From Hyphomicrobiales bacterium (GTDB lineage: Bacteria; Pseudomonadota; Alphaproteobacteria; Rhizobiales; JAJFHB01), in the NCBI GenBank assembly GCA_021775625.1, contig JAJFHM010000358.1, positions 1 to 34,717 on the forward strand: 34,717 bases of DNA, in the 5' to 3' direction. The notes beneath the pieces are model-generated. The model ran no database searches and was not told the DNA's origin. It saw only the letters and a list, made by a program, of their open reading frames with translations. Numbering within the stretch: the first letter of the stretch is position 1; every line of letters begins with the position of its first letter. Below are positions 13,436 through 19,988 of this stretch, in pieces. Position numbers and translations under genes: made by a program.

Positions 13436-13700
13436 TCGAACATACGCGCACACAGTCAATTCCGCATACGGACCCAAATTGCCATTGCCGACGCAAACCC
13501 AATCGCCTTATACTGAGCCCAAGAGACCTTGCGACCGCATCTTCGGGTAGATCGGTGCAAGGGGGGCGGAAGTTCAATCGCCGTTTAAAAAGGATTGATG
13601 TATGTTTGCGCCGTTGTCTGACCGTGCATCTGTGAAGACGCAAGAGACGAGATCAGCAAGTTTCAAAACCGCACCCTCCGAAACAAAGAGACGTTCGACC

Positions 13701-16280
13701 ATGATAGCCATCCGTCGGTTCGTGGGCGCTGCTGCCTGCATTCTTTGTGTCTTGAGTGCTGTGCATTCCGAAGCGTTTGCCCAGGACACCAACCCTTTGC
13801 AGCCAGGCGAGGCTTACTCGACACGGTTCTCCGGCACCACCGCAGGTAATAACAGCGCCGGCGAGACCATCCCAGTCATCGATCTCAGCGGCGTGGTCGG
13901 CAGCATCATTGATCTGCGTGCACCGGGCCATGAGCCCAAGGGCGAGCATTGGTTGACGGAACCGCAGCGTGCACCTCTGACCGCAGCAGAGGTTGGACAG
14001 GTATTTGGCATCGCCATGGACGACTGGGATCCGGCGAACATCTACGTGGCAGCGACATCCGCGTTCGGGCTGCACCTGACCGACGAGGGTGAATGGATGC
14101 CCGGCATGTGGGGGACCGAAGGCGGTCCCGGCACAATTTACAAACTTGATGGTGAAACCGGCTACCGGCCACAGGTGTTTGCCGACATCACTTTGGAAGG
14201 GCGTGCGAACACCGGAGCAGGTCTCGGCAACATTGTATATGACAGTGAACATGGGCAATTGATTGTGTCGGATTTGGAAACCGGCATGATCCATCGCATC
14301 GATGCAGAGACGGGCGAAGATCTGGAACGGTTTGACCACGGCGTTGACGGCCGTTCTTCCTTTATCGACGCTGAAACCGGCGAATACAGTGCCCTGCCAA
14401 TTGCGGAATTTGACCCTGACAGCGCCGCCAATATCGAAGACTGCGACGACGATTTTTCTCAGACTCCCGAATGCTGGAACGTTGCGGACTATCGCCGCCG
14501 GGTTTGGGGTCTCGGCCTGTTTGCCAGCGACGAAGACGAAAATCTCCGGCTCTATTATGCCATCTGGTCGAGCGATCCGCTTGGCGCGGACGACTGGGCG
14601 GAGAATCCTGAAGACCAGCAAAATACAATCTGGTCCATAGGCATTGCCGATGACGGCAGCTTCGACATTCAAGACGTTCGCCGTGAACTCACCCTGCCGC
14701 CGTTTGACAACCTTGGCACGCAGACCGGCACCGCGGTTTCCGACATTGCGTTCTCGCAAGACGGAACAATGCTTCTGGCAGAACGCGGCGGTCTCCGGAA
14801 TTTTGGCCTCGACGCACCCCAGGCGTTTGCCACACCGCACGTATCGCGCGTGCTGCAATACAAGCTGCGCCAGGCCGGAATATGGGAACCTATTGCCCGA
14901 TTTGATGTCGGCTTCTATGACCGTGTCAACGATGGAGCACCATATCTGCGCGCCAACGGTGCCGGTGGCGTCGATTTCGGTTATGGCTACACCGCCAAGG
15001 GCGTCATCAGCCCGACCCGCCCCGGCCGGATGATGTGGGCATCGGGGAACTATCTCTGTTCCCCGCAAGGCCCCTGTAACGATCCCGATGGCGGCCCGAG
15101 GCAGGACAGCGACCAGGTGCACGGGCTTCAGGGCACCCCCCGCAATGCGGATTCCACCCTCTTGCCGGACGGTGCGATGGAAGAATACCCCGACGAGGGC
15201 GATCCCTACCCTGCACGCGGCCCCAACAGTTCCTACCTGATCGATACGGATTTCAACATCGATGGTTTCGGCCGCATCAATGAAGATGAAGCGGAGCGCG
15301 ACGACGCGTCCCGGGTTGGCGATATCGAGATTTTCCGAGCCGGCGGCGCGGCGCCACCGCCGGTCCCGTTGCACGCAAAACAGCTGTCGGCGTTCCACAA
15401 CAAGTTCCAGTCGAACGCTCATGACAAGGTGAAGACGCTGCCGATCCACACCAAGGCAAAATCGCACAACAAGGTGCAATCGACCGCACACATCAAACCG
15501 TGGTCGCATCACAAGCCGGGATCGCACAAGAAAGCCAAGTCATTCCTGCATGTGAAGCCGTTCTCGCACTTCAAGCCGAATTCAGTCGTGCATGTGAAGC
15601 CCTGGTCGCACCACAAGCCGGGATCGCACAAGAAGGCCAAGTCATTCCTGCATGTGAAGCCGTTCTCGCATTACAAACCGAAATCGAAAGTGCATGTGAA
15701 GCCGTGGACCCACTTCAAGCCGGGATCGCACAAGAAAGCCAAGTCATTCCTGCACGTAAAACCCTTCTCGCACTACAAACCGAAGTCGCTGCCGCTCAAG
15801 CAGCCCAAACCGATCCACGTCAAACCGTGGTCGCACTTCAAACCGAAGTCACACAAGAAGTCGAAATCTCAGCTGCATGTGAAGCCGCATTCGCACTACA
15901 AGCCGAAGTCGCTGCCGATCAAGCAACCCAAGCCGATTCACGTCAAACCGTGGTCGCACAACAAACCAGGTTCGCACAAGAAGGCCAAGTCCCTGCTGCA
16001 TGTGAAGCCGCATTCGCACTACAAGCCGAAGTCGCTGCCGATCAAGCAACCCAAACCGATCCACGTCAAACCGTGGTCGCACAACAACCCGGGTTCGCAC
16101 AAGAAGGCCAAGTCCCTGCTGCATGTGAAGCCGCATTCGCACTTCAAGCCGAAGTCGCTCCCGGTGAAGCAGCCGGCACCGGTCGTTTGTAAGGGTCCGC
16201 TTGTCGCCGTCAACGGCAAGTGCAAGTGTCGGTCACGGAGACAGGTTTTGAAAAACGGGGTCTGCGTTGACAAAAACTAA
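13701..16280 (+). CDS. large exported protein: N-terminal propeller-like/PQQ-like domain, Lys/His-rich repeat region, C-terminal Cys motif
   Basis: MIAIRRFVGAAACILCVLSAVHSEAFAQ signal peptide; ~500-aa acidic N-domain; repeats of HVKPWSHxKPGSHKKAKSxLHVKPxSHYKPKS; ends CKGPLVAVNGKCKCRSRRQVLKNGVCVDKN. Confidence 0.75.
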   Translation: MIAIRRFVGAAACILCVLSAVHSEAFAQDTNPLQPGEAYSTRFSGTTAGNNSAGETIPVIDLSGVVGSIIDLRAPGHEPKGEHWLTEPQRAPLTAAEVGQVFGIAMDDWDPANIYVAATSAFGLHLTDEGEWMPGMWGTEGGPGTIYKLDGETGYRPQVFADITLEGRANTGAGLGNIVYDSEHGQLIVSDLETGMIHRIDAETGEDLERFDHGVDGRSSFIDAETGEYSALPIAEFDPDSAANIEDCDDDFSQTPECWNVADYRRRVWGLGLFASDEDENLRLYYAIWSSDPLGADDWAENPEDQQNTIWSIGIADDGSFDIQDVRRELTLPPFDNLGTQTGTAVSDIAFSQDGTMLLAERGGLRNFGLDAPQAFATPHVSRVLQYKLRQAGIWEPIARFDVGFYDRVNDGAPYLRANGAGGVDFGYGYTAKGVISPTRPGRMMWASGNYLCSPQGPCNDPDGGPRQDSDQVHGLQGTPRNADSTLLPDGAMEEYPDEGDPYPARGPNSSYLIDTDFNIDGFGRINEDEAERDDASRVGDIEIFRAGGAAPPPVPLHAKQLSAFHNKFQSNAHDKVKTLPIHTKAKSHNKVQSTAHIKPWSHHKPGSHKKAKSFLHVKPFSHFKPNSVVHVKPWSHHKPGSHKKAKSFLHVKPFSHYKPKSKVHVKPWTHFKPGSHKKAKSFLHVKPFSHYKPKSLPLKQPKPIHVKPWSHFKPKSHKKSKSQLHVKPHSHYKPKSLPIKQPKPIHVKPWSHNKPGSHKKAKSLLHVKPHSHYKPKSLPIKQPKPIHVKPWSHNNPGSHKKAKSLLHVKPHSHFKPKSLPVKQPAPVVCKGPLVAVNGKCKCRSRRQVLKNGVCVDKN
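15366..16180 (+). repeat. in-frame tandem repeats encoding Lys/His/Pro/Ser-rich units
   Basis: CACGTCAAACCGTGGTCGCAC recurs; 123-bp (41-aa) period measured at 15811, 15934 and 16057; shorter 34-aa units upstream. Confidence 0.9.
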
Positions 16281-16367: not shown

Positions 16368-17462
16368 ATGACACAGTGGTTTCGGCTGGTCTGTTTGCTG
16401 GTTCCGTTCGCGGTCGCGTTGATGTCACCGGCAAACGCACAGGAAGTGCGGGCTCTCAACACAAACCAGCACTACATCGAGCAGGCCTCAAAGACCCATT
16501 CACTTGACGTTACCGATACAGAGTCCGTGTTTCGCTTTGTCTTCGGCGCCTTGCCAGAATCAGTCACCGTCTATCCCACGGAAAACTACTACTACTTCAG
16601 CTTTTTGCACGACGGCGCCGAATTCGCCGGCAACCTGCGTCTGGACGCCAGCGACCGCGATAAGGGCATCATTCATTTTGCCTATTTTTCGGCCTACGCG
16701 CAGTGGAATCAGGAGATCGTCAGTCAATACAAACCACTGACGGCGGATGATGGCGTTCGGGTCGAAAAGCTCCACGACCTTGCCTACAAGATCACGTTTG
16801 AAGACAAATCAGTTACCTTCAATCTCAATGATCTCACAGACACCCGCCCTCCGCCCGGATCATTGCGCAAGAACGAGGAGTATCTCGGCCCGGTCTTCGA
16901 TGAATCCGGCATCGAGATGTATCTGGTGTTCAACACATCGCTGAAGATTTTCCACTATCTGCTCAACGACGCCGGCGCGGCACGAGAAGTGCTCAACCCA
17001 AGTGGAGTATCGGACCACATCTGGATCGGTCACCGGACCGGCTTTGCCTACTACGCGGACCGGTTGCTTAACCGGAAGATCCTCATTGGCGTCTACAACG
17101 GAAACTCGGAGGTCAACAATTACTTTGACGGTCCCTTCGATCAGTTGCCGGACAATTTTATCAGGGGCAACGCATTGAAGGATGCGCTGGAGGCCGCATT
17201 CCCCTCGATCAAGGGCAAGATTGATCGCTACGGCAATGCAGAAGGCGGGCAAACGCGTATTCTGGTAACGCCGTATATCCACTATGACAGCCCGTACGAA
17301 CTGCAATATTTCTCCGAATGTGCCGACACCGCCAGCGAAGACGAAGACGCCTATTACCGCTGCTTCAGCGTAGAGGAAGACGACGACGCGGAAGCGGCCG
17401 ATGCAAGCGCCGATGAAAGCACGGACACACCGTCTCAGGACACCTCCGTGACCGGCGACTGA
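16368..17462 (+). CDS. exported protein of unknown function with acidic C-terminal tail
   Basis: MTQWFRLVCLLVPFAVALMSPANAQ signal peptide; tail VEEDDDAEAADASADESTDTPSQDTSVTGD. Confidence 0.65.
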   Translation: MTQWFRLVCLLVPFAVALMSPANAQEVRALNTNQHYIEQASKTHSLDVTDTESVFRFVFGALPESVTVYPTENYYYFSFLHDGAEFAGNLRLDASDRDKGIIHFAYFSAYAQWNQEIVSQYKPLTADDGVRVEKLHDLAYKITFEDKSVTFNLNDLTDTRPPPGSLRKNEEYLGPVFDESGIEMYLVFNTSLKIFHYLLNDAGAAREVLNPSGVSDHIWIGHRTGFAYYADRLLNRKILIGVYNGNSEVNNYFDGPFDQLPDNFIRGNALKDALEAAFPSIKGKIDRYGNAEGGQTRILVTPYIHYDSPYELQYFSECADTASEDEDAYYRCFSVEEDDDAEAADASADESTDTPSQDTSVTGD

Positions 17463-18893: not shown

Positions 18894-19988
18894 TCAATAG
18901 ACCACTGAAATCTGACCGCCGCCGGAATATTCAATGTAGTTAGACCGGCCCAGACCGCCGACCCCGCCCGAGAGTGAAAGCGAGATCATTTCAGTCAAAA
19001 CGATATTCACGCCACCGGTAACGGAGAAGTCGACGGCCGGGTCGTTGACATTTGACGCAACCAGGCCCGAATCCAGAGGCGGATTGCCGAATATGTCAAA
19101 TTCCCACGCACCCTCCACCGTGACTGACGGCTCGATCGAACGCACATCGTCGATCGCAATGGCATAGCTCAGCGTCGCGCCGAAATTCATCACAGCGGTG
19201 TGGACGGTTTGCGCGGCAAAAAATGTTGCGGCACTGTCGGTATACGCACTATCACGGTTGTAGGAATAAGAAAGCCCAACACTTGGGGATAACGTCAGGT
19301 TATCGCCAAGTGGGACATAGCCTGTGAGATTTGTCGCAAAGTTCCAACTGCGCGAGGAGAAGTCTCCGATCGATATTCGATCTGAGATGTCGTTCTTTGC
19401 CCAGGTATAGGTGAACGCCGCGTCGAACAGCAGGTTATCGCTCAGAGCGACGGCAATATACGGCCCGACACCGTAGCTCTGGGTCTCGAGGCGTCCGGGC
19501 GCAAAGGCTGCCCCGCCGAAATTGTTATCGATATCGGAAATGTCGTAGTTAAACGAGACACCCACCACCACGCTGTTGTTCAATGTGATATCCAGACCGG
19601 TACCGACCGTTGCCATTGGACCATCAAACTCGGCACCAGGCTCATCGCCCTCAATGTGAGTATAGCTGCCGTCAACCCAAATTCCCCAGCTCGGTGCAGC
19701 TTCAGGCTCGGCGGACACCGGAGAAACGACGGTTCCGAGGCCCGCAAACTGCCCAACGCTGCGTCGCGCATCGTCGCCACGCAGCCTGCCTTCGACAAGC
19801 TGTTTGATCCGCAGCCTGATGTTCTCGCCGCGCTGGATCAGCAATCTCGGAACGACAATGCGTTGCTGATCACGGAAGAAGTCACCCGCATGGGTGCTTG
19901 GCGCCCAAGGCACAGACGCAACAAAGCCGATCGCACCGCAAATTGCAGCGTACCCTAACGACTTCAGTCCTGACCGGATTTTCCCCAC
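18894..19988 (-). CDS. autotransporter-domain/outer-membrane beta-barrel protein
   Basis: Signal-like N-terminus, alternating beta-strand pattern (WGIWVDGSYTHIEGD..., YGVGPYIAVAL, SWNFATNLTGY), C-terminal aromatic ISVVY. Confidence 0.75.
   Translation of the reverse strand: MGKIRSGLKSLGYAAICGAIGFVASVPWAPSTHAGDFFRDQQRIVVPRLLIQRGENIRLRIKQLVEGRLRGDDARRSVGQFAGLGTVVSPVSAEPEAAPSWGIWVDGSYTHIEGDEPGAEFDGPMATVGTGLDITLNNSVVVGVSFNYDISDIDNNFGGAAFAPGRLETQSYGVGPYIAVALSDNLLFDAAFTYTWAKNDISDRISIGDFSSRSWNFATNLTGYVPLGDNLTLSPSVGLSYSYNRDSAYTDSAATFFAAQTVHTAVMNFGATLSYAIAIDDVRSIEPSVTVEGAWEFDIFGNPPLDSGLVASNVNDPAVDFSVTGGVNIVLTEMISLSLSGGVGGLGRSNYIEYSGGGQISVVY

Follow-up and report, generated by a model that had tools for sequence, protein, structure and literature searches.

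Comparison with Described Systems

The closest named system to the locus described here is the His-Xaa-Ser (Hxs) system HxsABCD (Haft and Basu, cited in PMC9062424), called a putative maturation system and comprising a repeat protein (HxsA), the radical-SAM proteins HxsB and HxsC, and HxsD. As in Hxs, our locus encodes a repeat protein with His and Ser at fixed spacing and has a dedicated partner encoded alongside. However, the Hxs repeat is the tripeptide H-x-S and its maturases are radical-SAM enzymes, whereas here the repeat is a hexapeptide, H-x4-S, accompanied by a single exported partner.

Membership in the Hxs system was considered and rejected on several grounds. The H-x-S spacing is at background level, with Ser or Thr at position +2 of 8.6% of 888 tail His residues (91.3% at +5). 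The models of HxsB (TIGR03978) and HxsC (TIGR03977) each exceeded their cut-off in one of 27 partner genomes, the same genome in both cases; the genome that contains our locus is incomplete. The HxsA/HxsA4 models did not match the repeat protein of our locus; an array protein from Legionella (L256) scored 29 bits against a cut-off of 55, and another (L037) scored 34.9 against 121.65, matching through its peptidoglycan-binding part. Finally, that one genome (G033) possesses both systems as separate genes: an HxsA/HxsB/HxsC-like cluster (L335, L337), whose HxsA-like protein has a HYSHASHSSHASHHSHYS tail with the classic H-x-S pattern HASHSSHAS, and the H-x4-S partner.

A chemical precedent is provided by noursin, a histidinobutyrine lanthipeptide in which the enzyme NorKC links the side chain of a His to a residue derived from Thr in the peptide (PMC10206099). 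NorKC is a synthetase that depends on NTP, and its substrate is a short precursor peptide in which Thr precedes His (residues 8 and 11) (PMC10206099). In our locus, by contrast, Ser follows His at a distance of five residues, and the exported partner belongs to no known family. Noursin serves as an analogy only.

Literature searches with the motif in several notations, conducted largely outside subscription journals, returned no description of it, and an earlier one may exist. The pair is real and apparently undescribed, both in its motif and in its partner family.

Array Protein of the Window

The window is the whole stretch of DNA analysed, 34,717 nucleotides long (contig 288 of MAG G000, 61.6% complete). 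An open reading frame at 13602–16280 on the forward strand encodes 892 aa. The likely start is Met34 at 13701, giving a gene at 13701–16280; it would open a Sec-type signal sequence (MIAIRRFVGAAACILCVLSAVHSEAFA), in agreement with the original prediction that the protein is exported.

The N-terminal domain (13782–15365, forward strand) yields a confident all-beta AF2 model (pLDDT 84.7, pTM 0.89). Its top Foldseek matches are mostly propellers, with low TM-scores, its sequence profile matches DFPase weakly, and it corresponds to none of the Pfam and NCBIfam families. The fold is probably propeller-like, as had been guessed from the sequence, and low TM-scores preclude assignment of a specific propeller function. 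The likeness to SMP-30/DFPase-type six-bladed propellers, which consists of weak profile similarity and these propeller matches, covers only the N-domain; with no Pfam match and low TM-scores, it does not allow any function to be transferred. A 624-aa open frame running antisense to the domain (13653–15527, reverse strand) is probably a side effect of codon usage.

Downstream of the N-domain, at 15372–16157 of the same strand, follows an in-frame array of 35 non-overlapping H-x4-[S/T] hexapeptides. Position 1 is His in 35 of 35 units (25 CAC and 10 CAT codons), and position 6 is Ser in 33 and Thr in two, written with the codons TCG, TCA, TCC, TCT, ACG and ACC. Shuffling the tail composition gives about five motifs. 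The array has no match in Pfam or NCBIfam, in line with the earlier impression that it belongs to no named family. Tandem Repeats Finder (TRF) recovers the previously reported 123-bp period (3.6 copies) together with one of 102 bp; nevertheless, the basic unit is the hexapeptide rather than the long block, and the 32- and 41-residue blocks are higher-order duplications of hexapeptide groups. The aromatic and aliphatic residues (W/F/Y/L) proposed to occupy fixed positions do not do so; the fixed residues are His and Ser/Thr. The array is followed by a short C-terminal Cys motif (CKGPLVAVNGKCKC...CVDKN; 16188–16277, forward strand), which resembles one unit of the Cys-rich tails described below.

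An assembly or frame artefact had been named beforehand among the findings that would overturn the prediction. A genome of the same genus, with 75% N-domain identity, keeps both the frame and the motif, and the reading frame is on this ground real. Since this homologue carries 45 copies against 35 in the window, copy number varies, as anticipated. A broader version of the same objection, a low-complexity artefact or chance linkage, could draw on the repetitiveness of the tail and on contigs that break within the array. It is refuted by cross-species data: different genera, unrelated carriers and a further class all preserve the frame, the motif and the partner.

A Hexapeptide with Fixed Spacing

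The N-domain was found in 26 of 61 genomes of relatives and in 114 of 398 genomes of the order; the full-length array protein used as a query found no related loci. With the 134 further N-domain loci collected, tails could be compared in 135 proteins. Arrays of H-x4-[S/T] form the tails of 25 of them, and tails are otherwise wholly different among species. Relatives with arrays retain the propeller and change every feature of the tail except the His-to-Ser/Thr spacing, as exemplified by HTPRATHRRWGS, HRPPKSPHLPRGS, HLKWKSKFHKKWKS and SHNREGSHDRELSHFREGS. In sister proteins, this N-domain is joined to tails of the DUF11-like, peptidoglycan-binding or Cys-rich type. They share with the array proteins the organization into many short repeated tail units (DUF11, peptidoglycan-binding or CPKGWRRVNGKC repeats), but in the sisters Cys, in place of His and Ser, delimits each unit, and the partner gene is missing. 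Long Cys-rich basic repeats (CPKGWRRVNGKCRPP, CKQQGKRGKWPNC) accompany DUF11-like domains in sisters such as L043, L045, L046 and L049; these repeats also look undescribed.

The motif can be written as H-x-[R/K/P]-x-x-[S/T]. In 898 distinct hexapeptides from a set of 53 proteins, positions 1 and 6 are fixed and positions 2, 4 and 5 are nearly free, position 5 being Gly in 33%; position 3 is Arg, Pro or Lys in 78% and almost never acidic. Linkers between hexapeptides are mostly 0, 1, 2 or 5 residues long, and tandem amplification ranges from 9 to 74 copies. In strict tandem arrays (e.g., L166 and L256), position 2 often alternates between aromatic or hydrophobic and polar residues (HLRTGS/HNKKRS), a 12-residue period that hints at a folded repeat. 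A profile of strict tandem arrays (A3) had clear matches exclusively in partner-positive genomes. Weak matches in G195 and G238 contained no arrays upon inspection, and an unlinked match in G360 (HILFVS repeats, without a signal sequence) was dismissed as simple-sequence noise.

The spacing was also assessed by a test not selected on the motif, in which every tail His was scored in 22 tails with the partner at the locus and 110 tails without it. With the partner, Ser or Thr occupies position +5 of 91.3% of the His residues (n = 888), and all other offsets range from 4 to 24%, the highest being +11 and +12, as expected from the next unit. Without it, in mostly Cys-rich tails, the +5 value is 9.8% of 672 His, equal to the level of other offsets. 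Across GTDB, 38 N-domain ORFs with usable tails gave 93.6% of 1556 His.

The original prediction favored binding of polyanions or metals by a basic, His-rich tail, and the array might itself be the active part, with the partner as an accessory such as a metal-loading protein. The arrays are His-rich throughout and many are strongly basic, the window array carrying a net charge of +23 per 100 residues. Among relatives, however, this charge lies anywhere between −3 and +29 per 100 residues, and in certain arrays Lys and Arg are rare or missing within the motif (HLPIGS, HTPPGS), with His and Ser unchanged, making polyanion binding unlikely as a general role. Metal binding would leave the fixed Ser unexplained, as the +5 Ser/Thr is conserved as strictly as His yet is a poor metal ligand. 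Besides, the 22-row alignment of the partner (A2) contains not a single conserved His, and just two of its Cys are conserved. Taken as a whole, this alternative appears decidedly unlikely.

Partner Gene and Its Linkage to the Array

The key element overlooked by the original prediction lies directly downstream of the array gene, at 16368–17462 of the forward strand. It encodes a 364-aa protein with a signal sequence (MTQWFRLVCLLVPFAVALMSPANA) and the motifs VYPTENYYYF and NNYFDGPFDQLPDNF. The homologues in A2 share 43–68% identity with the window copy and about 45 invariant columns, which include E72, N89, R91, R223, the segment D254-G-P-F-D258-Q-L-P-D262 and the two Cys. No member of the family had a convincing match in Pfam or NCBIfam, PDB sequences gave no hit at E ≤ 10, and the AF2 model (pLDDT 84.5) matched nothing significantly among PDB and viral folds. 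As judged from these searches, the partner appears to be an exported protein of no known family.

Clustering of neighboring genes revealed a single gene family that adjoins array loci only, and no third conserved gene recurs among the neighbors. The partner HMM placed this family beside 22 of 25 array loci and none of the 110 loci with other tails. The remaining three loci are untestable, as they stop inside the array at a contig end, so that all 22 testable array loci have the partner; in those three genomes, the partner opens another contig and is preceded by an array of the same kind. The contrast of 22/22 with 0/110 overstates independence, because array-bearing N-domains all fall inside one clade of the N-domain tree (32 rows). 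Within this clade, a genome-wide search found the partner in 25 of 25 array genomes and in none of the seven non-array genomes. Most of these seven members have Cys-rich tails, one stops just 25 residues beyond the N-domain, and one (L035) is truncated by a contig end and counts only provisionally as a member without an array. Mapping the array label on the tree requires about six changes, at least two of them forced by starred branches.

The two genes lie next to each other, frequently with an overlap or only a short gap. Both window proteins bear signal sequences, and visual inspection shows them on many relatives too. This arrangement would also suit an export chaperone, folding factor or protease serving the array proteins. 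Such a role would leave unexplained why the two-residue spacing is kept on unrelated carriers, and sister proteins that share the N-domain do without the partner; we regard it as highly unlikely.

Independent Carriers and Distribution

The partner was detected in 43 of 398 genomes of the order, was almost absent from the class and phylum samples, and was not found on plasmids. It also adjoins arrays on small secreted proteins devoid of a propeller; indeed, its non-propeller neighbor is often a small exported protein bearing H-x4-[S/T]. Such carriers include HIGKPS/HAPEGS arrays with 17 of 17 and 17 of 19 His in the motif (L240 and L241), HSRRRS-type proteins (L229, L233, L243 and L246), HWRWGS/HNRARS pairs on the opposite strand (L228, L231, L234 and L236), three proteins at one locus (L237), and proteins with HNKWKS (L239) and HKRRKS (L248). 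In the gammaproteobacterium Legionella gresilensis (L256), a 216-aa exported protein with 24 exact tandem hexapeptides directly adjoins the partner. The pair spans many Hyphomicrobiales genera and at least one Legionella. Non-pathogens with the partner include Rhodomicrobium udaipurense, Rhodobium orientis and Prosthecomicrobium hirschii.

A GTDB scan with the partner returned 161 loci. Among the best 80 of these 161, 47 have a neighboring ORF above the H-x4-[S/T] threshold, while the same 80 loci yield 0–3 at control spacings of x1–x3 and x5–x9. The other 33 have no array reaching the threshold, several of them encoding small proteins with two or three motifs. Likewise, about four of the 43 partner genomes in the order sample have no array near the partner. 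Small natural carriers measure approximately 90–230 aa, and some bear only three to five motifs; besides the HIGKPS-type protein of L240, they include the HWRWGS-type proteins of L292 and L301.

Proposed Function of the Pair

Pairs of a substrate with its maturase or sorter have been found earlier through genomic signatures of this kind. Here the signature consists of a two-residue motif at fixed spacing, up to 74 repeats, unrelated secreted carriers and one uncharacterised exported protein. Four features are established: the motif itself, the strict +5 spacing, its occurrence irrespective of the carrier protein, and its tight genomic association with the partner. The array and the partner very probably constitute a dedicated functional pair.

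We propose that the first gene yields an exported protein whose tail is a string of independent H-x-[R/K/P]-x-x-[S/T] sites, and the second an exported partner dedicated to them. Their encounter would take place after export, either in the periplasm or extracellularly. There the partner, acting as an enzyme, would use the His and Ser/Thr side chains to recognize every hexapeptide and would covalently modify or join these side chains. The tail would thereby become a series of loops, closed or modified, and could serve structurally as disulfide-closed loops may do in the sisters' Cys-rich tails.

Covalent processing of the motif is our preferred reading, with a probability of roughly 45%. Three observations favor it. 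Only two side chains, both with reactive groups, are invariant, at a spacing reminiscent of the two ends of a small ring, and the four residues in between are almost unconstrained. The partner shows enzyme-like conservation, in contrast to the hypervariable arrays. Finally, the other tails carried by this N-domain consist of units delimited by Cys, which need no partner. Searches of Pfam, NCBIfam, PDB sequences, and PDB and viral folds assigned the partner to no catalytic family or fold, and no cofactor site was apparent in it; it is conservation that suggests enzymatic activity. Known routes of serine dehydration or crosslinking, of which noursin is an example, use NTP or SAM, neither of which is available outside the cytoplasm, and this counts against extracytoplasmic processing. 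The partner loci and genomes in which no neighboring array was found also speak against it. In its most specific form, the partner would be the first of a new enzyme family operating outside the cytoplasm without NTP or SAM and joining His to Ser in each H-x4-S unit, which we consider unlikely.

The main rival of covalent processing is docking, in which the partner would be a non-enzymatic receptor or anchor and the array, through numerous weak contacts, would tether its protein to the partner and thereby to the cell surface. The 9–74 tandem copies with variable linkers suit multivalent binding, two of the scanned array proteins also bear a peptidoglycan-binding domain, and no enzyme family was found for the partner. 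On the other hand, conservation of more than two side chains is usual for a docking motif, and here positions 2, 4 and 5 vary almost freely. Neither a membrane anchor nor a cell-wall domain is recognisable in the partner, and small proteins bearing only 2–5 motifs also pair with it. Docking seems somewhat doubtful, though a serious contender.

The small natural carriers make the pair directly testable. If the partner modifies the motif, it would represent a new extracellular protein modification; if it binds the motif, the latter would be a simple repeat tag for surface display. Should His-Ser joining prove true, bacteria would have a cysteine-free way to close loops in surface proteins.

Neighboring Genes and Related Loci

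Several other genes of the window surround the pair. A FemAB-like protein (PF04339; 22743–23957) and an autotransporter beta-barrel (18894–19988) are encoded nearby, and no recurring link to the pair was found for either. A serine hydrolase of the beta-lactamase family (PF00144; 17513–18880) adjoins the partner, and a homologue follows the partner in the same-genus genome only. In L. gresilensis, the array gene is directly followed by a gene for a membrane protein with nitroreductase (PF00881) domains (L256, 7912–9882, forward strand), which by eye resembles SagB-type dehydrogenases; it is absent as a recurring neighbor of other partner loci.

A genome of another order (G633) encodes a distant partner homologue (L253, E = 1e-77). 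The secreted protein upstream of it carries H-x3-S-like units (HQPGS, HRGSS, HGAAS), hinting that the spacing of the motif may have changed together with the partner.
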